From Blautia sp. (lineage in GTDB: Bacteria > Bacillota > Clostridia > Lachnospirales > Lachnospiraceae), in the NCBI GenBank assembly GCA_017459635.1, contig JAFUCO010000063.1:1-43622 (forward strand): a DNA stretch of 43,622 bases, given 5' to 3'. Each line of letters opens with the position of its first letter. Within the stretch, counting starts at the first letter, position 1. Position numbers and translations under genes: made by a program. Positions 1 through 18,339 of the stretch are shown here, one piece after another. The notes under the pieces were generated by a model. That model was not told where the DNA came from, ran no database searches, and worked only from the letters and a program-made list of their open reading frames with translations.

Positions 1-43
1 ATGATTGTCTGCTTCTGAACCAACTTAACCACTCCTCTCAACC

Positions 44-67
44 TCCTCTCAGTTTATACTGAGAGGA
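44..67. repeat. 10-bp inverted repeat downstream of cas9
   Basis: Arms 44-53 and 58-67 (TCCTCTCAGT / ACTGAGAGGA) are perfectly complementary around a TTAT loop. There is no T-run on either side, so a Rho-independent terminator is doubtful. It lies 55 bases past the premature cas9 stop codon and could mark the edge of a rearrangement or of a mobile element whose remainder is outside the window. The rest of 1-121 holds no supported gene. Confidence 0.4.
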
Positions 68-121
68 TACACTATTTTGATCAAGAGTGACTGATTTTTC
101 AATGAACATCTTGACTTAATT

Positions 122-3100
122 TTAGATTAGCATAAACAATTTCGATGTGGGCAGATCTTTTTTCAAAGGAACAAGGTAATCTGAAGCTTTCACCGGCATC
201 TGGTCAAACAGGCCTCCAGTCTTAAAAAAGGCATATTTTGTAAAGTGAGCAGTATTCTTATGTGCGGTATTCTTTACCATACTCAACATTTCTTTACCGT
301 TCCAGACGGTATTCCCACCACAGATCACCGGATAGCTAAAAAGTGTTGTTGTCTTAATGCTGTATCTGGAGTGAATGTCAAACCAGCGCTTTGAAAACTT
401 CATGTTATATACATTGCCAGTCACGATATTGAGATATGCATCTACTGCATGATGAAGATCATTAAATATACGAGATTTAAGAATATCAAATTCCCTCCTG
501 AAATCACTGGTAAGACGTGCTTTCACATACACGATCTCAGAAGTTGGATATTTCTCCTTCAGAATTTCCGTTACTGCTTTTGTTGATTGTGTTGTTTCTG
601 TTAACTGCCGATTAATAAAGCCATACTTTTCTTCATCAGTAAATGGTGTGTTTCTTGTAAGCCTCTTATATTTCTCATCTCCGATCAGACCAATATGCCG
701 AAGGAAATCCCAATATCCACGCATTTTTATTCGGATATCCTCCTTTATTGGATATTGATCACCTTTCTCACCGTTTTTTGTAGAAAGAACCAACACTTTA
801 TTGTTAATAATACTATCGTCTTTTACATAGGCCTGAGGGTAGATGTGATCAATATCATAAAGCTTGCTCCCCAGATTTTCAAGGGTGATCGGTTCTCCAC
901 TGTACATACACTTTCCAAGCTGCATATAATATAGAAACAGTTTATCTCCTTGAAGTTTGCTGTCTGCTGCCTCGCCCATCTGTTCAAGCTGTTCACGGAG
1001 AATATGGATATCTTCATCCTTGCATCGAGCATATAAGTCTAAAATCTGCTGCTTTCTTGTTTTCGTTCTCTTGCCTCTTTGTTCATCTGTTGCTCCGCGA
1101 GCCATCTCGACAAAAATCTTTTCAGGAGTCCCAAAGGCCTTTACTATATCCTTTACAACAGCAAGCGTTCTATAAACAGGACGACGGACAGCATTGGAAA
1201 GGTACATATTATCAAGCCGTTTTTCGAGAGTAAGCTTGTTTTCTTCATAATAATCACTTCTGTATGCTTCAATTTCTTCCCGGAAAGTAAATCGGTCGGA
1301 AAGCAGTTCCATAAGATTATTCTGCGTTGTCCAGAGAGCATTGAGAATAGTCATTATTTCTCCAGTTTCTTTATTGACCCCTTCTATTCCTACAAGAAAT
1401 CTGCGTGATAACCGTCCAAAATCTTTAAATTTGAGATTTGTTATGTATTTTTTTTCAGATTCAGGAAGATCCGGATATTCATGGTCGAGCCACCGGGATA
1501 ATCTTGACTTATCTTCAGCGTAAGTTGATCTTTCAATTATTCTTTCAGCATCATCCTCTGTCAGCAAACCTTTTTCAATTAGCTTCTTAAAAGCAATCTG
1601 CGGCATGAGATTAGATTTGATTTCTATATCGATACCTGATATGTTGTCTTCTTCTCCTTTTTCAATGATCCCATTTGATATAAGATAGCTTGTCAGGCGT
1701 TTCCTGGTGACTTTCTTAGTATTCATAAATAGATCATTATATATCTGCTGCTTGATTTCTACTGAAATACGAACACCATTTATTCTCAAATTGTTCAACT
1801 CATTTAAAACAGAGTACATATGATAGCATAAGCTGTCTTTTGGAAGAACATATTCACCTGGAAGGTATGTACACGTGTTAGTTAGCTTCTGAATAAAGGC
1901 CTGCTCGCTGGCATCAAAATCTACAATCGATTCAATATTCCATGGGTAAATTTTCTCCGGCTTACGGACAATCCACGAATATGACGAGTGAGGATTCAGA
2001 GGCCCTACAAAGTACGGTACACGGAAAAGAAAAATAGATTCTATCTTCTCAGCAACGCTAAGCCCTTCTTTATCTGTGCTAATCAAAAAGCCCAGATAAG
2101 CAGACGCCTTTTCCAGTATTTTCTTAAGTTCATACCAGTATAACTGGTGAGGGATCACACGATTATCTGTATTCTTTTGTTTCGGAAGAAACGAACGCTG
2201 AGACAGACGCTCTTTCATCTCTTCAAAGTCTTTCATGTCTTTTTCTTCCGGAACAATGTTTTTTATAATACTTGAAACATATGTAGAAAATGCTTCTATA
2301 TCACATTTTTTATTTGACTCCGAGCTATCTATAATACCATGACCTGTATATGCAACATAATTCGCCTTCCCTGTAGTCCGAAACACTTCATTGTATTTTT
2401 CCGGAATGTATTTTCGGATTATATATTTAAGCAATGTAAGATCAGATTTATGAACGTCGTAAACCTTAACTTTAGCCTCTGAAATAGTTTTATAATCACC
2501 AAGAACATCAATAAGAAGTGCCCAGTCATACAAAGTCCGCATCATGGAAATAAGTTCAAACTCATCACCCAAAGTTGCCTCCAGCTCAGCATACTTTTCC
2601 TCTTCCATTCCCAAAGAGAATGAACCTGCTTCTTCAAACTCATCATTGCAGAAAAGAGCAGCTGCAGTAACCTTTCCACCTGAAAGGAGCTTAACAATCG
2701 CTTCTCGACTGTATCCAAAGTCTTCTGTAGCCTTCTTCTCAGGTTTTCTTCCATTAAAGAGTATTTCAATAAGCTTTTTGTTTTTGTTTGTTACATTTGT
2801 TTTTATACATAAAGCTTTACCAAATTCTGCAATATCTATATCTTCCCAGGGAGATGCATATCCGTTTTGAGTGAAAAATCCCATGAAATTACTATAAATC
2901 CCATCAAAATCTTTTATTTTTTCCAGATGCTCTTTATCAATATTGCTGAGAAAATGCCCACGATGAGAGACAAGCCAGGCAATTGCAAGATAGACAAGTC
3001 TTACATCATGGGGCTCATTACTATTCATCAATTCTACAATCAGGTGATGTATAGTCGGATATTTAGAATAATACTGTTTATCAGTGTATACATCATCATT

Positions 3101-3418
3101 GAACAATGTAAAATCATCCTGTACATCTTCACGAAAAAGCATACTTTCCTTGAGCCTTATAAAGAACCTGTCATCAATCTTAGCAATTTCTTCAGCAAAT
3201 AGCTCCTGTACAAATTGTACTCTCTGTTGGCGCCTGTCCAAACGGCGTCGTGCGGATCTGAAAGATCGTCTTTCGCCGCTTAAAGCAGCCTGATCAAAAA
3301 TTGTAACTCCCCATGCATCATCTCCATGAAAACGAAGTAGTCTGTAATTCTCATCCGTTACAGCATAGCCGACTGAATCAGTACCTATATCAAGACCGAG
3401 ATAGTATTTTTTATTCAT
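122..3418 (-). CDS. cas9: Cas9 RNA-guided endonuclease, C-terminally truncated
   Basis: Type II CRISPR effector that cuts crRNA-matched DNA with RuvC and HNH nuclease domains. Seen in the 1098 residues: RuvC-I LGLDIGTDSVG with Asp10; an arginine-rich bridge helix near residues 50-67; a recognition lobe; RuvC-II IFVEMARG with Glu771; HNH YDIDHI with Asp857/His858 and a following NNKVLV; RuvC-III HHAVDAY with His989 and Asp993. All catalytic positions are kept. The protein stops at residue 1098, just after DYLVPLKK, where family members usually continue for roughly 200-270 residues through the WED/PAM-interacting region. The final residues SKLFMLI do not resemble that region, and no other frame of bases 1-121 restores it. 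The start has GGAGG 9 bases upstream. Downstream cas1, cas2 and csn2 would lie left of base 1 and cannot be seen. Probably a decaying or rearranged gene. Confidence 0.95.
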   Translation of the reverse strand: MNKKYYLGLDIGTDSVGYAVTDENYRLLRFHGDDAWGVTIFDQAALSGERRSFRSARRRLDRRQQRVQFVQELFAEEIAKIDDRFFIRLKESMLFREDVQDDFTLFNDDVYTDKQYYSKYPTIHHLIVELMNSNEPHDVRLVYLAIAWLVSHRGHFLSNIDKEHLEKIKDFDGIYSNFMGFFTQNGYASPWEDIDIAEFGKALCIKTNVTNKNKKLIEILFNGRKPEKKATEDFGYSREAIVKLLSGGKVTAAALFCNDEFEEAGSFSLGMEEEKYAELEATLGDEFELISMMRTLYDWALLIDVLGDYKTISEAKVKVYDVHKSDLTLLKYIIRKYIPEKYNEVFRTTGKANYVAYTGHGIIDSSESNKKCDIEAFSTYVSSIIKNIVPEEKDMKDFEEMKERLSQRSFLPKQKNTDNRVIPHQLYWYELKKILEKASAYLGFLISTDKEGLSVAEKIESIFLFRVPYFVGPLNPHSSYSWIVRKPEKIYPWNIESIVDFDASEQAFIQKLTNTCTYLPGEYVLPKDSLCYHMYSVLNELNNLRINGVRISVEIKQQIYNDLFMNTKKVTRKRLTSYLISNGIIEKGEEDNISGIDIEIKSNLMPQIAFKKLIEKGLLTEDDAERIIERSTYAEDKSRLSRWLDHEYPDLPESEKKYITNLKFKDFGRLSRRFLVGIEGVNKETGEIMTILNALWTTQNNLMELLSDRFTFREEIEAYRSDYYEENKLTLEKRLDNMYLSNAVRRPVYRTLAVVKDIVKAFGTPEKIFVEMARGATDEQRGKRTKTRKQQILDLYARCKDEDIHILREQLEQMGEAADSKLQGDKLFLYYMQLGKCMYSGEPITLENLGSKLYDIDHIYPQAYVKDDSIINNKVLVLSTKNGEKGDQYPIKEDIRIKMRGYWDFLRHIGLIGDEKYKRLTRNTPFTDEEKYGFINRQLTETTQSTKAVTEILKEKYPTSEIVYVKARLTSDFRREFDILKSRIFNDLHHAVDAYLNIVTGNVYNMKFSKRWFDIHSRYSIKTTTLFSYPVICGGNTVWNGKEMLSMVKNTAHKNTAHFTKYAFFKTGGLFDQMPVKASDYLVPLKKDLPTSKLFMLI

Positions 3419-12997: not shown

Positions 12998-13213
12998 TCA
13001 GCCCAACAAATCTCTGAGGATCTTAATATCATCAGATGTAAGCTTGATATTTGAGGTTGCACCCTTGCCATCAGGATTTGTGACTTTAACCTCGATCACA
13101 GAACCTTCGCTTACATTCTTCGCAACATTCTTAAGAAACGGTAAAAACTTCGGATGTCTCTCCCTGAATTTTCCAAGTTGGTCTTTTGCTTTTAATAAAT
13201 GCATCGGGTTCAT
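12998..13213 (-). CDS. Small conserved-looking protein co-transcribed with nrdG
   Basis: 71 residues, MNPMHLLKAKDQLGKF at the start, then a segment VIEVKVTNPDGK and a C-terminal DDIKILRDLL. AAGGAGG sits 7 bases before the ATG, the strongest ribosome site in the area, so I consider it a real gene. No signal or membrane segment. No family recognised. Coupling to nrdG suggests a shared role or simply shared expression. Confidence 0.75.
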   Translation of the reverse strand: MNPMHLLKAKDQLGKFRERHPKFLPFLKNVAKNVSEGSVIEVKVTNPDGKGATSNIKLTSDDIKILRDLLG

Positions 13214-13339: not shown

Positions 13340-13509
13340 CAAACACAAGGACCGGTTCTCCGTCTTAAGACAGGGGACGGAGTCGACAGGGGAGTCGACA
13401 GGGACGGTTCTTATTGACTCTCGGCTTGGACAGTCGAAAGGGACGGTTCTTATTGACTCATGAAAAAGGAGTCAATAAGAACCGTCCCAGTTGACTCTCA
13501 GTTGACTCT
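13340..13509. repeat. Cluster of GGGACGGTTC palindromic repeats
   Basis: Several copies of the core occur in 170 bases. The clearest is a hairpin with 20-bp perfect arms (13440-13459, GGGACGGTTCTTATTGACTC; 13469-13488). Direct copies at 13386-13420 and 13431-13459 carry GTCGACAGGG or GTCGAAAGGG heads. It is downstream of the GH3 gene and upstream of the 71-aa gene and may terminate transcription. The remaining bases 13214-13339 hold no recognisable feature. Confidence 0.75.
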
Positions 13510-15183
13510 TTATTTTTGGAGAAGTCCAAAGAAGAATCGCTTTAGTCTGCCTTCAGGTATCAGGTGGAGCGGTTTGATCTGATTTGGAGACGCGCCTCCC
13601 ATTACTTTAAGATCCCTGTACAGTGCATAGGTCTGTGGCTGAAGGAATCTTACCTCCAGGGGCAGCATGATCTTCTGTTCAATTTTTAAGCGGTAGGAAT
13701 CATGGGCCTCGCAGAGCTTTCGATTCAGGATCTCCGAATAATACGGCCATGCTTCCGGCGTGATCTCCCGGTCACTTTCAAGCAGAACAGTATAATGCCC
13801 GGGATCAGTCTCCGCATCCGCATATACGCCATACTCCAGCAAAGATGTATGGGACTCCTCCGCTGTTGCCTCCACGGCATTATGAATTACCGTCTCCGTC
13901 ACTTTTTCTCCGTACATGCTGATCAGCTGATTTTTCCTGTAAGAAAACACGATCATCGGACATTCGTTATGATACCCGGTAACCCTGATCACATCGCCCA
14001 GACGATAGCGGTAAAAGCCTGACAGGTTAGTGACGACCAGCTCATATTCCTTGCCTGTCTCCAGCTGATCCATAAGCAGCGGTGTTTTTGATCCGTTTTC
14101 ATCTACGGGAATAAATTCAAAAAAACCGCTCCACGGGATCAGCATATATTCCGCCTGATTCTCACGAAAGACTGTCCCGATGACAGCTTCTGAACTGACA
14201 TAGCCCAGATGGTCCACTGCCACATCGGGACCGATAAACCTGCGCATCTTTTCAAGATAGGGAGCAAAGGATGCAGAACCGATCGTTGCGATCATCTTCA
14301 TATCCGGCCACAACAGCGAAACGAAAGCATCGTCTTCATGCCCGGCCATGATCGCCCGTACCTGGTCAGCCCGCTCCCGGTCCGGTTTCATACGTGCCTC
14401 AAGCTTCCTGCGCATCGAAGGATCGATCACTATGTTCTGGTTTATGCGTCCTTTCTCTATATCCTCACACAACAGTTCCCAGTTATTTTTCAGATAGATG
14501 AACATATCATACAGGAAAGGAGCAAAGCTGCATTGAATAAAGCTCAGGCGGCGTTCAAGCAGCGTAAAAAGCAGTTTCAGGTGCCGCCGGTCAAAATCAG
14601 CAGCCGGATAAACGAGTTCCTCAGGCAAGGCATTGTACACAGACACTTCATCCCGGACGAGCACAGTTTCTGAAATGGCACCATGCGCCACACCGTAGGT
14701 TGTGTATCCCGGTTTCGATTCCATAATCGTAATTCCCTTACACTCAGGCATACCTGTTCCGTATTTTTCCCTGCAGTGCTGATCATACAGGGCAAAAACC
14801 CGTTCGTATCCTGCACCGAAGAAAACAACCAGTGCTTCCCTGGTGCATGGAATTATTTTGAAGGCCCCTGTGGTCCCGGAGGTGTGAGCATAATAAACCA
14901 CTTCTTTTGATGTAAGCAGGTTCTTCTTATTAAAACACACCATCTGCTCAATATAGGGCTCAAAATCCTCATAACTCGATAATGGCACCCTGGCAGCATA
15001 ATCATCATATGAATGTATTTTCTCAAACCCATACTTCTTTCCGTATTCAGTATTCTCATTCTCACGGATCAGCCGCATCAGCAGCTCCTGGCTGACAGCA
15101 TTTCCGTGAAGGCTGTCTTTTTCCAGCCGTTCCAATACCTTCGAGCCTTCAGAAATATATCGTTTCATGATTTCATTATTCAT
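13510..15183 (-). CDS. GH3-family acyl-acid amido synthetase
   Basis: 557 residues. GH3 enzymes of the adenylating superfamily activate a carboxylic acid with ATP and join it to an amino acid as an amide. Family marks: ENTEYGKKYGFEKI and VPLSSYEDFEPYIEQM in the N-terminal third; a phosphate loop AHTSGTTGA near residues 99-107; DHLGYVSSEAVIG; and LVVTNLSGFYRYRLGDVIRV. The length is usual for the family. The ATG at 15183 overlaps the TGA of the upstream NRPS gene (ATGA) and has GGGAG 7-8 bases upstream; an in-frame ATG at 15207 would add 8 residues. No signal peptide. Plant members conjugate hormones; the bacterial substrate here is unknown. The tight coupling to an NRPS implies one pathway. 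Confidence 0.9.
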   Translation of the reverse strand: MNNEIMKRYISEGSKVLERLEKDSLHGNAVSQELLMRLIRENENTEYGKKYGFEKIHSYDDYAARVPLSSYEDFEPYIEQMVCFNKKNLLTSKEVVYYAHTSGTTGAFKIIPCTREALVVFFGAGYERVFALYDQHCREKYGTGMPECKGITIMESKPGYTTYGVAHGAISETVLVRDEVSVYNALPEELVYPAADFDRRHLKLLFTLLERRLSFIQCSFAPFLYDMFIYLKNNWELLCEDIEKGRINQNIVIDPSMRRKLEARMKPDRERADQVRAIMAGHEDDAFVSLLWPDMKMIATIGSASFAPYLEKMRRFIGPDVAVDHLGYVSSEAVIGTVFRENQAEYMLIPWSGFFEFIPVDENGSKTPLLMDQLETGKEYELVVTNLSGFYRYRLGDVIRVTGYHNECPMIVFSYRKNQLISMYGEKVTETVIHNAVEATAEESHTSLLEYGVYADAETDPGHYTVLLESDREITPEAWPYYSEILNRKLCEAHDSYRLKIEQKIMLPLEVRFLQPQTYALYRDLKVMGGASPNQIKPLHLIPEGRLKRFFFGLLQK

Positions 15184-18098
15184 TGCTCTTCTCCCGAAAT
15201 CATCCATATAAGTGCTTCATTGTAAAAGCCGCAGAACTTTTCAATCAATGCTGCCGAATACAATCTGGAATCGTAATTAATATAGAACGGTACCGGCGCA
15301 TCCTGATCAGGACTGCTATTAATGATTATCTGGATCCTTGTAAATGCACCATTCAGTTTGTGGTAGGCAAAGGTGACTTCCGTGCCTTCGGGCAGAAAGG
15401 TACTCATATCAAACCCGGTTTCGTACACCACGATCATCCGGTCTCTGTCTCCCGGCGTAACCCCATAATTTCCCAATGACAGATCGGCATAGCGCATACC
15501 AAGTTCATTTTGTTCGTCTATTTGCTGCAGGATATCCCGGGGGCTGCTGATCTGCGTCATATCAACGGCAACGGGCACGGAAGCTATCGTGATTCCTATC
15601 AGATCCTGCTTCCAGTTTTCATCTCTGCCGTTGAAAGTCCATTCCACTGATATTCTGCTTTCATCGCTGAGCTTCGACAGGGCAGTCAGCCCTGCGGCGA
15701 CAAACAGCTTATTCATACTGGTGCCCAGCTCTTCACAGCCCTTCTGAAGCCGGCACTGAGGGACCGTCGTAGCGCTCAGATACTGTCCGTTTGCAGTATG
15801 CCGTGATTCAAGATCCGGCCTGGGGTTGCACAGGTACTCTTCGCGGCTGAACCTCTCCATCAGAAGCCTGGCGTCAGCATCCTGCTCCAGTTCCATCCGT
15901 CTGCGATACTGATGCTCCAGATAATAATAATAGTGATCCTCCCGAAGCGTCTCACCCCGATATGCAGCAAAAAGTTCAGACATGAAATTGGCCATGGTGG
16001 TTCCGTCACTGATCAGATGGCAGGTATCAAAGTCCAGGATAACACGCGTCTTAGTTACATATATCCTGCACCGGTACATCAGTTCCCCTTCCAGGCGGTA
16101 GGGCTGTATCAGATCCACCAGCATATCCTCCGTATGCTCCGGAACCTCGCGTATTTCCGGATGAACGATTTTGCCCGGCATACAGCGCATAACGGGAACG
16201 CCTTCTTCATCATGTGAAAAGACGGAGCTGAACAGTGCATAATTGGAGAAAACATCTTCAAGCGCGGATTTAAGCCTTTCGGGTTCTATGGCTTCTTTTG
16301 GGAAAGAAAGACTCATAGGGTTGCTTAATTCCGTCTGCATTGGAGAATACAGCATCGCATCGTAAAAGTAGGTCTGATACGGTGTAAGATACTGATCGTG
16401 CATGATCGCTGCCCGGTTCAGTTCACCCAGATCCATCTTTTCCTTTTTATGCAGACGCGATGCAATTTCTCTCGGCGTTTTCCATGTATAAATATCCTTG
16501 TAATCAACCCGGATCTCTTCAAGTTCTGCTGCTGCCAGTGCAGTGGAAAGGGAATCACCTCCCAGTTCAAAGAAGTCGTCATCCACACCCACCCGGTCAA
16601 CATGCAGCACATTTTCAAATGCTTTGCAGATCGCTTTCTCATACGGCGTCTCCGGCATAATATAGGCAGCGGTCTTTTTGTTGAAATCAGGCTTCGGCAG
16701 AGCAAAACGATCCACTTTTCCGTTATTGTTCAATGGGATCTTATAAAGCCGCATAAAAAAAGCAGGTATCATATAGTGCGGCAGGGACTGCTGCAAATGC
16801 TTTCGGATCATATCTTCATGCAGGTCGTTTCCGGCCACATAGTAGGCACAGAGGAAAACCTGTCCGCGTTCTCCCTGAAAATCTCTGACAGCCGCGTTCT
16901 CAATGCCCTTGATCTTTCGCATCGACGCTTCTATTTCGCCCGGTTCCACACGATTACCGTTGATCTTCACCATGGTGCTGAGCCGCCCGGTCACCAGGAT
17001 ATTCCCATCCGGCAGGCGCTTTCCCATGTCTCCGGAATGGAATACGCCATCTCGCATCACCCTTGCTGTTTCCTCCGGCAAGCCGATATATCCCCGGAAA
17101 AAAGGATCGTCAAAGCATATCTCACCGGCCTGCCCTTCCTGTACCTCCTGACCGTTTTCATCCAGCAGCCAGATGCAGATATCCTCAAATACCGGCTTAC
17201 CTATAGGTGTTATATCATACCGGCGGTCAATTTCAAACTGCGCCACATGAAAACCGGCCTCGCTCATACCATAGTTGTTGATAAGACGGATCCCCTCAAA
17301 CCATACTCCGTTAGCTGCTTCACTTCCGGTCACCAGGGTTTTCAGAGATGGTGCCGGGCCATTCTTCATCACCCGAAGGATGGATGGGGAAAGAAAAGCC
17401 ATGTTAACCTGGAAACGATTGAACTGTTCGTTCAACAGCACAGGGTTGCGCGCAGTTTCTGTTGACAGGATGATCAGCCGCATACCTGAATACAGAGCGT
17501 TAAGAAAGATCTTTAACGCTGCGATGAAATTCAGCGGTGCAGCCAGTGCCGTACAGGTGTTCTCGTTTACCAGATCTCCGGGGGTTCTCTCAAGTGAGGC
17601 CTGATTCAGCTTGATCTTTCCATACTCCTGTAAAACGCCTTTGGGTTTCCCGGTACTGCCGGATGTGTAGATGGCAAAGCAGGCGTCATGATCATCTGCA
17701 TGATGATACCCTGTCACAGGTTTACTCTTAAGTATCTCCTGCCATGTATCTTCGTCAATCACCAGGCGGCATCTGCAGTCCTTTTCTATTGCATCAATAC
17801 GTTCCGGCGCATAGTCATCTTCCACCACGGTAAATGCCGCTCCGGCTTTCCATACTCCCAGCATTGTAATAAAAGGACGCGCATCCCTCGGAAGTCGGAT
17901 CAGCACAAAATCTTCCGTCCCGATCCCCATGGAGCAAAGATACCCATATACGAGGGAAGATAATTCATCAACCTGCCTGCGGGTGAAGCACTTTCCCGAT
18001 ACTTCTTCTGTCAAAAAGACCGCTTCCGGATCCTGACTCACCACATTCATCCAGCTTCTGCACACATACGGAATGGTGTTCAAAAAATCGAGCTTCAT
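15180..18098 (-). CDS. Nonribosomal peptide synthetase: adenylation-carrier-condensation
   Basis: 972 residues. Adenylation domain (about 10-470): YTSGSTGKPKG at 144-154, NNYGMSE at 274-280, HSGDMG at 354-359, GRLSTMVKINGNRVEPGEIE near 371-390 and NGKVDR with the catalytic Lys461. Carrier domain (about 480-552): LGGDS with phosphopantetheine site Ser516. Condensation domain (about 570-965): the HHxxxDG motif appears as CHLISDG (693-699), keeping the catalytic second His and the Asp-Gly. No thioesterase, reductase or epimerase domain. The substrate loop APLNFIAALKIF lacks the Asp that holds the amino group in amino-acid-activating domains, so an acid without an alpha-amino group is possible. 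Start chosen at 18098 (AAGGAG 8 bases upstream); 18140 is an alternative. A phosphopantetheinyl transferase must come from elsewhere. Confidence 0.92.
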   Translation of the reverse strand: MKLDFLNTIPYVCRSWMNVVSQDPEAVFLTEEVSGKCFTRRQVDELSSLVYGYLCSMGIGTEDFVLIRLPRDARPFITMLGVWKAGAAFTVVEDDYAPERIDAIEKDCRCRLVIDEDTWQEILKSKPVTGYHHADDHDACFAIYTSGSTGKPKGVLQEYGKIKLNQASLERTPGDLVNENTCTALAAPLNFIAALKIFLNALYSGMRLIILSTETARNPVLLNEQFNRFQVNMAFLSPSILRVMKNGPAPSLKTLVTGSEAANGVWFEGIRLINNYGMSEAGFHVAQFEIDRRYDITPIGKPVFEDICIWLLDENGQEVQEGQAGEICFDDPFFRGYIGLPEETARVMRDGVFHSGDMGKRLPDGNILVTGRLSTMVKINGNRVEPGEIEASMRKIKGIENAAVRDFQGERGQVFLCAYYVAGNDLHEDMIRKHLQQSLPHYMIPAFFMRLYKIPLNNNGKVDRFALPKPDFNKKTAAYIMPETPYEKAICKAFENVLHVDRVGVDDDFFELGGDSLSTALAAAELEEIRVDYKDIYTWKTPREIASRLHKKEKMDLGELNRAAIMHDQYLTPYQTYFYDAMLYSPMQTELSNPMSLSFPKEAIEPERLKSALEDVFSNYALFSSVFSHDEEGVPVMRCMPGKIVHPEIREVPEHTEDMLVDLIQPYRLEGELMYRCRIYVTKTRVILDFDTCHLISDGTTMANFMSELFAAYRGETLREDHYYYYLEHQYRRRMELEQDADARLLMERFSREEYLCNPRPDLESRHTANGQYLSATTVPQCRLQKGCEELGTSMNKLFVAAGLTALSKLSDESRISVEWTFNGRDENWKQDLIGITIASVPVAVDMTQISSPRDILQQIDEQNELGMRYADLSLGNYGVTPGDRDRMIVVYETGFDMSTFLPEGTEVTFAYHKLNGAFTRIQIIINSSPDQDAPVPFYINYDSRLYSAALIEKFCGFYNEALIWMISGEEQ

Positions 18099-18339
18099 AG
18101 TCACTCTCCTTCTACACATGGGCAGCTTTGCCATGCTCATTTCTCTTTACTCCCTGAAACAAAGATTGTCTCTGTTGGAATTTTCATAATTCCTTACAGA
18201 TCAAATCAGACAAATTAATGTTGGACAAGGATTTTTTTCACTTTTTTTGCCGGTTCGTTAAGCAGTGACAGGGTGAGTCGAACCGGCACATTATTTACGC
18301 TGCTTCGTAAAACGACCATTCCGGCTTTCCGTGTTCAGG
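18099..18339. other. Intergenic between divergent NRPS and nth genes
   Basis: Contains a 9-bp inverted repeat GCCGGTTCG (18249-18257) / CGAACCGGC (18279-18287) with a 21-base loop. A T-run precedes it on the plus strand, so it is not a terminator in either direction; an operator for the divergent genes is possible. On the minus strand TTGTCC followed after 17 bases by TTTGAT (about 18204-18232) is a weak promoter candidate for the NRPS operon. Confidence 0.35.

Follow-up and report, generated by a model that had tools for sequence, protein, structure and literature searches.

Fatty acid amide (FAA) synthases of gut bacteria, such as OaaA/OaaACP/OaaC of Coprococcus eutactus, were reportedly described by Chang and colleagues in 2021. 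In vibriobactin assembly, the adenylation (A), carrier (T) and condensation (C) functions reside in the separate proteins VibE, VibB and VibH, which use an aryl acid and are not known to have a GH3 partner; there, an acid held on a carrier is coupled to an amine in solution, a likeness in activities to the genes described below. Plant GH3 enzymes use plant hormones as substrates. We know of no nonribosomal peptide synthetase (NRPS) that partners a plant GH3 enzyme, and to our knowledge most bacterial GH3 enzymes have no assigned role. Here, a 43,622-nucleotide (nt) stretch of DNA from Blautia sp. (assembly GCA_017459635.1, contig JAFUCO010000063.1, positions 1 to 43,622; hereafter the window) was analyzed, in which an NRPS gene with the domain order A-T-C runs directly into a GH3-family gene. 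As judged from sequence, the pair probably makes a small amide metabolite in a gut or rumen bacterium. It is a variant of known amide-forming enzymes that is confined to one rare clade, and the pairing itself is apparently new: no description of a GH3/NRPS pair was found among the top-ranked matches in the openly licensed PubMed Central literature, in agreement with an earlier sequence-only annotation of the window (the original prediction), which knew of no described pathway with this pair. If the proposal is true, it would be the first link, within that literature, of bacterial GH3 enzymes to thiotemplate biosynthesis.

According to the retrieved sections of PMC13142362, OaaA, OaaACP and OaaC provide the A, carrier and C activities, the C domains of FAA synthases carry the motif (D/H)HxxxDS, and related gut amides act on host receptors. 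The window pair resembles these enzymes, as those sections present them, in acid activation by an A domain, a carrier thioester, a free small amine as the presumed partner at the C domain, the lack of a thioesterase and an occurrence in gut Clostridia; moreover, the pair contains no acceptor carrier for its C domain. However, the FAA synthases are three separate proteins, whereas the window encodes one fused A-T-C chain; the window clade has CHLISDG or HHLISDG in place of (D/H)HxxxDS; and a GH3 partner, present in the window, is not mentioned in the retrieved sections. Plain membership in the FAA synthases was rejected because of the fused chain and the different C motif, and these enzymes were kept as a functional analogue. 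On the GH3 side, OlsH, a GH3-like lyso-ornithine-lipid synthetase of Singulisphaera, has biochemically demonstrated ATP-dependent amide formation: it uses ATP to couple free fatty acid with ornithine, yielding N-acyl ornithine, and needs neither acyl carrier protein (ACP) nor coenzyme A (CoA) (retrieved sections of PMC12493201). Judged against the same sections, its partner is OlsI, an alpha/beta-hydrolase O-acyltransferase, whereas the window GH3 is partnered by an NRPS, and the window GH3 keeps the plant-type motifs better than OlsH does. Rumen NRPS clusters have been counted in thousands by antiSMASH, with no mention of GH3 in the retrieved sections of PMC8241843.

The longest NRPS open reading frame (ORF) spans 15180-18140 on the minus strand; its start was placed at the ATG at 18098 because orthologues begin at MKxxFL, giving a protein of 972 amino acids (aa), in agreement with the end coordinate of the original prediction. 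The GH3 ORF opens at 15207; counted from its conserved ATG at 15183, the protein has 557 aa (13510-15183, minus strand). In a Pfam scan of both proteins that reported E-values up to 0.001, the NRPS protein matched, in order, AMP-binding (9.7e-45), AMP-binding_C (3.8e-5), PP-binding (5.6e-8) and Condensation (2.3e-22), and its core motifs were intact (A10 Lys, GGDS Ser and C-domain His). The ORFs and Pfam matches reproduced the A-T-C order without a release domain and the ATGA overlap with the GH3 gene, both of which had been reported before. The features of the locus are as follows.

15180..18098, minus strand: A-T-C NRPS gene, 972 aa, start ATG at 18098, stop TGA at 15182-15180 (ORF, Pfam, orthologue start Met).
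17088..18038, minus strand: adenylation domain core (AMP-binding, PF00501), code IAKAVGNFHK, no Asp235 (Pfam; alignment to EntF).
16716..16937, minus strand: AMP-binding C-terminal subdomain (PF13193), with K461 (of 972) as the catalytic lysine in motif A10 (Pfam and alignment).
16455..16634, minus strand: carrier (T/PCP) domain (PF00550), phosphopantetheine Ser S516 in GGDS (Pfam).
15480..16397, minus strand: condensation domain, Pfam-matched stretch (PF00668).
16002..16022, minus strand: C-domain catalytic motif CHLISDG (H694, D698, G699) (alignment of the window and four orthologues).
15180..15183, minus strand: ATGA stop-start overlap of the NRPS and GH3 genes, shared with L123 and L124 (ORF coordinates).
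13510..15183, minus strand: GH3-family acyl acid amido synthetase gene, 557 aa (ORF, Pfam, motifs, structural alignments).
14857..14883, minus strand: GH3 nucleotide motif I, TSGTTGAFK (residues 101-109; motif as defined in the retrieved sections of PMC12493201).
14188..14202, minus strand: GH3 nucleotide motif II, YVSSE (328-332; same definition).
13993..14019, minus strand: GH3 nucleotide motif III, GFYRYRLGD (389-397; same definition).

The second protein matched three Pfam families well above their cut-off of 23.6 bits each: GH3 (229.8 bits, E 5.7e-68), GH3_M (91.2 bits, 4.5e-26) and GH3_C (61.1 bits, 2.1e-16). All three GH3 nucleotide-binding motifs (SSGTS-type, YGSSE-type and G-YRYRLGD) were present, and the fold was nearest to solved GH3 enzymes, not to CoA ligases; structural alignments gave 23-27% identity to plant GH3 enzymes (JAR1, GH3.12 and others). 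The second gene encodes a member of the GH3 family, as had been proposed from the letters of the window, and is predicted to form amides via an acyl-adenylate. Orthology to OlsH was rejected, since the protein scored 118.1 bits against the curated OlsH model NF052613, far under the cut-off of 620.

An alignment scan of named bacterial and archaeal genomes returned at least 437 GH3 relatives, of which the best 80 were analyzed. Six of these loci were 55-75% identical to the window GH3 and the rest were at or below 40%; L161 reached 41% in a separate alignment. In all six close relatives, which are metagenome-assembled genomes labelled Lachnospiraceae, Clostridia and Clostridiales, the NRPS gene or its remains lay directly upstream on the same strand. 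The NRPS was complete in L123, L126, L127 and L128; L124, cut by the start of its contig, retained just the final 222 aa of the C domain, and in L125 (1318-4052), a truncated A domain abutted a truncated GH3 with the remaining NRPS missing, by either a deletion or an assembly fault. The genes overlap by ATGA in L123 and L124, as they do in the window, and are 72-87 nt apart in L126-L128. None of the 13 other window genes recurred around five of the close relatives (L124 left out). Among the remaining 74 of the best 80 loci, four had any A or C gene in the sampled flanks, none of them adjacent; this count is a lower bound because many contigs were short and only 58 of the 80 loci had at least 3 kb of upstream DNA. 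The original prediction named rare adjacency in homologues as a ground for refutation, and on this point the outcome was split: the two genes were adjacent in every relative seen within the clade and at none of the 74 loci outside it, as far as their sampled flanks reach. Since adjacency held in every close relative but an A or C gene occurred at only 4 of the 74 other loci, the pairing looks like an innovation of this one clade rather than a trait that GH3 genes share across Clostridia.

For the GH3 tree, 130 ORFs were collected, 17 were dropped (matched span below 420 aa or ORF above 650 aa) and exact duplicates were removed, leaving 105 sequences plus the window. The seven paired GH3 proteins formed an exclusive clade in this tree of 106 sequences, with a Shimodaira-Hasegawa-like approximate likelihood ratio support of 100 by a quick method. 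In the A-T-C tree, which was built from 18 chosen proteins plus the window, the five paired proteins were likewise one clade (100/100), and a single split (98/96) set these five and the two A-T-C proteins of the other GH3 clusters apart from the rest, in a tree with one long branch and an uncertain root. The ratio of nonsynonymous to synonymous substitution rates (dN/dS, simple Nei-Gojobori) was 0.07-0.12 in the four of nine comparisons with measurable dS, which at 2.1-2.6 was itself near saturation; the other five comparisons were saturated. These ratios indicate purifying selection, with both genes kept. A pseudogene or a chance neighborhood was rejected on the basis of this selection and of the six kept pairs among six relatives. 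The same two lines of evidence support functional coupling of the NRPS and GH3 genes at the sequence level, which bears out the coupling first suggested by their overlap.

The unit is rare and patchy. In an order-level sample, 46 of 392 genomes (own included) had a GH3 match; aside from the window's own locus, no long GH3 match exceeded 40% among the matches listed, and pieces of 75-120 aa reached 41-44%. In a family-level sample, an A-T-C-like match at an E-value of 1e-100 or better occurred in 19 of 397 genomes (own included), and the paired clade was certain in the window's genome only. One match, L090 (genome G536), was about 46-47% identical over the A-T part; it was broken at the contig start, its pieces were searched separately, and its code, VAMIIGTFPK, was unlike that of the paired clade. 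The idea of a general GH3-NRPS link across Clostridia was not borne out, as neither sample held further clear clade members. Among 36 genomes of the same genus, many of them incomplete, no second copy of the pair was found, and the best long GH3 match was 38%. The GH3 pieces of G027 were up to 62% identical to the window's over 68 aa, yet 69-83% identical to unpaired GH3s (12 listed matches), and were grouped with the unpaired ones. Genome G751 (L238) groups radical-SAM, tadA and endonuclease III genes with a 583-aa gene and lacks the pair at that place; no clean empty-site junction was seen there because tadA and its neighbor are rearranged. A plasmid search returned GH3s at 22-30% identity only, in 10 records. 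A profile-to-profile comparison (hhalign) of two GH3 alignments carries no weight, as the two have sequences in common. Separately, three GH3s at 34-35% identity (L167, L181 and L187) lie on contigs labelled Methanomethylophilaceae or Methanomassiliicoccaceae and branch among bacterial GH3s; they are probably transferred genes or mis-binned contigs.

The pocket of the A domain was read by alignment to Escherichia coli EntF, EntE and FadD. As a control, the same alignment returned DVWHFSLVDK for EntF, which we take to be its published code. Asp235 anchors the alpha-amino group of amino acid substrates, and NRPS A domains for other acids likewise lack it. Across the ten pocket positions, the window shares IAKAVGNFHK with three relatives, and L127 has IAKVVGNFHK; the pocket fits no code known to us. 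The equivalent of Asp235 was missing: the position is Ile in the EntF register and Asn190 (followed by Phe191) in an alternative register, and Asp in neither. The first three positions are not placed with certainty, since Asn, the first code residue of EntE, missed the EntF column. Two readings of the pocket stand side by side: the Lys at position 239 resembles a glutamate-type pocket, and the Asn-Phe of the alternative register resembles aryl-acid domains. The missing Asp235, together with the nearly invariant and unusual code, suggests that the substrate of the A domain is probably a carboxylic acid with no free alpha-amine, in line with the acyl rather than alpha-amino acid substrate originally assumed. 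Dicarboxylic, aryl, fatty and N-acyl amino acids may all be candidates, with none preferred. The predicted NRPS fold had a mean predicted local distance difference test score of 84.1 and a predicted template modelling score of 0.50, and its nearest matches were amino-acid-type A domains; this search mostly reflects the A domain and is of little use for the C domain.

GGDS with Ser516 was invariant in all five sequences compared (the window and four orthologues), and PF01648 had three matches above the cut-off in the window's genome. Compared with HHxxxDG, the usual C-domain motif, the first His is replaced by Cys in the window, L123, L126 and L128 and is present in L127 (HHLISDG), and the second, catalytic His was kept in all five. 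Pfam reported no thioesterase, reductase or second carrier in either protein, and neither an acceptor carrier nor a release domain 3' of the C domain in the gene pair. With no carrier behind the C domain, the acceptor is likely to be a free amine; by analogy with VibH or OaaC, the C domain likely passes the acyl group to a soluble amine. A comparison with PDB sequences was uninformative for this domain, with 2jgp as the only match (E 7e-5).

We tentatively favor, at slightly less than even confidence, a two-enzyme, two-amide pathway in which the A-T-C protein forms the first amide and the GH3 enzyme the second. In this pathway, the A domain would adenylate a carboxylic acid without a free alpha-amine and load it onto the carrier; the C domain would then transfer the acyl group to an amine free in solution, releasing the product without a thioesterase. 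The amine acceptor would probably carry a carboxylate, as an amino acid does. The GH3 enzyme would then adenylate a carboxylate, most simply that of the first product, and add a second amine or amino acid without a carrier, so that the end product would be a small acyl-X-Y diamide. The two reactions and the order in which they occur, as well as the chemical classes and the product, are inferred from what is observed: the domain order, the intact motifs, the kept pairing, the purifying selection, the missing Asp235 and the missing acceptor carrier. Consisting of two genes only, with a near-invariant code and with neither exporter nor tailoring gene alongside, the pair would be a small, directly testable metabolite system of the gut or rumen.

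Several observations weigh against this pathway. First, 70 of the 80 GH3 loci had no A or C gene in the sampled flanking DNA. Second, the NRPS tree grouped the window with L127 (96/94) and the GH3 tree grouped it with L123-L125 (99); this conflict indicates that the genes have not always traveled together and makes exchange within the pair, inside the clade, likely. Third, given the uncertain register of Asp235, Asn190 of the window could act like the Asn of EntE, as in an aryl-acid type. Fourth, the other stand-alone A-T-C genes examined had no GH3 in the sampled flanks.

The reactions might also run in reverse order, with the GH3 enzyme making an N-acyl amino acid that the A domain activates and the C domain passes to an amine. 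This alternative would explain the missing Asp235 directly, as the alpha-amine would already be capped, and would do so as well as the favored pathway. OlsH also offers a precedent, being a GH3-like enzyme that makes N-acyl ornithine without ACP or CoA (retrieved sections of PMC12493201); however, it is distant from the window GH3 (118 bits against 620). The position of the NRPS gene as the first in the operon speaks weakly for the other direction, and the sequences do not fix the order; on balance, the reverse order appears doubtful. It seems unlikely that the A-T-C protein makes a single fatty or aryl amide by itself while the GH3 enzyme competes for or modifies the same acid, in supply, detoxification or a parallel product. 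The A, carrier and C functions do match the activities of OaaA, OaaACP and OaaC (retrieved sections of PMC13142362), and the acceptor carrier is missing in the window pair, but the C domains of the clade carry CHxxxDG or HHxxxDG instead of (D/H)HxxxDS, and the fact that all close relatives seen keep the two genes together, overlapping or a short distance apart, suggests a joint product.

A second GH3/A-T-C cluster was found in the same genome, on contig C43 (L023, L024), which carries a GH3, a family-2 glycosyltransferase, an A-T-C protein and two ABC exporters, as well as a second NRPS-like protein (BLAST match only), ATP-grasp genes and a phosphatase-family gene. The contig also encodes a glycosyltransferase fused to GH3 N-terminal and central domains, with no GH3_C match. 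A cluster resembling that of C43 is present in a same-genus genome (L028), and the product of this cluster type is probably a glycosylated peptide-like or lipid compound. PF00668 had two matches only in the window's genome, which is 67% complete, namely, those of the window and C43, and both lie at GH3 loci, supporting a working GH3/A-T-C link beyond one operon. The second NRPS-like protein of C43 also gave a weak partial match (28 bits) to our own C-domain profile. The A-T-C protein of C43 is only approximately 28% identical to that of the window. These loci permit a broader proposal, to which we give somewhat less than an even chance: carrier-bound NRPS condensations and carrier-free GH3 condensations would act in turn on a single molecule as a hybrid relay, in which the GH3 enzyme extends or releases the chain of a minimal NRPS, with an origin in gut and rumen Clostridia and possibly a second occurrence in the larger C43 cluster. 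If true, this would be a mode of metabolite assembly without a description in the literature searched. It is very unlikely that the window A-T-C protein is one in-trans station of a larger NRPS line, for example, with C43, whose chain the GH3 enzyme off-loads: the genome's only other PF00668 match does stand in a cluster with a GH3, an A-T-C protein, ABC exporters and a second NRPS-like protein, but the two A-T-C proteins share the low identity given above, and the orthologous pairs lie on stretches without NRPS neighbors (a search for C43-like clusters was not extended to those whole genomes).

The A-T-C order is not unique to the paired clade: other genomes of the same family also encode A-T-C proteins that stand alone (L083-L097). 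They have a similar length and the same domain order, and Asp235 is missing in all eight compared, whereas their identity to the window protein is 28-34% (10 aligned) and the neighbors of those examined are carboxylesterase, MATE, SSF, SpoIIE-type and other genes, with no GH3 in the sampled DNA. Two of them form a parallel two-gene arrangement with a different second enzyme: the A-T-C gene is followed directly by a carboxylesterase gene (PF00135). In L084 (8109-12772), the stop and start codons share one base (TAATG), and in L085 (6040-10797), 24 nt separate the two genes. At two further loci, L027 (350-8914) and L106 (205-10546), two free-standing condensation-domain proteins lie a few kilobases from a GH3, with the C motifs QHAIFDG/THAIFDG and NHIYYDG. 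L106, the one of the two that was scanned, also has three family-2 glycosyltransferases and a HlyD-type protein nearby.

In the window, the 5' neighbor of the NRPS gene is a divergent endonuclease III gene (18413, plus strand), and the next same-strand ORF 3' of the GH3 gene encodes 71 aa (12998-13213) approximately 300 nt away, past a repeat hairpin. With this divergent gene on one side and a distant ORF behind the hairpin on the other, the pair likely forms a two-gene operon with no third gene evident, so that the earlier statement of nothing else in the operon is still the likeliest reading. A promoter scan gave 16 promoter-like sites against 7.7 expected and 1 terminator-like site against 4.8, numbers that are not usable as evidence. 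Directly 3' of the GH3 gene, at 13401-13488, the 20-base repeat GGGACGGTTCTTATTGACTC occurs in two direct copies and one inverted copy; it was found at 16 places in the genome at two or fewer mismatches, compared with 0 for the reversed control. At the far end of the window, positions 1-3418, which span a 1098-aa ORF (122-3418, minus strand), have a guanine-cytosine content down to 37-38% versus 46-54% in most other parts.
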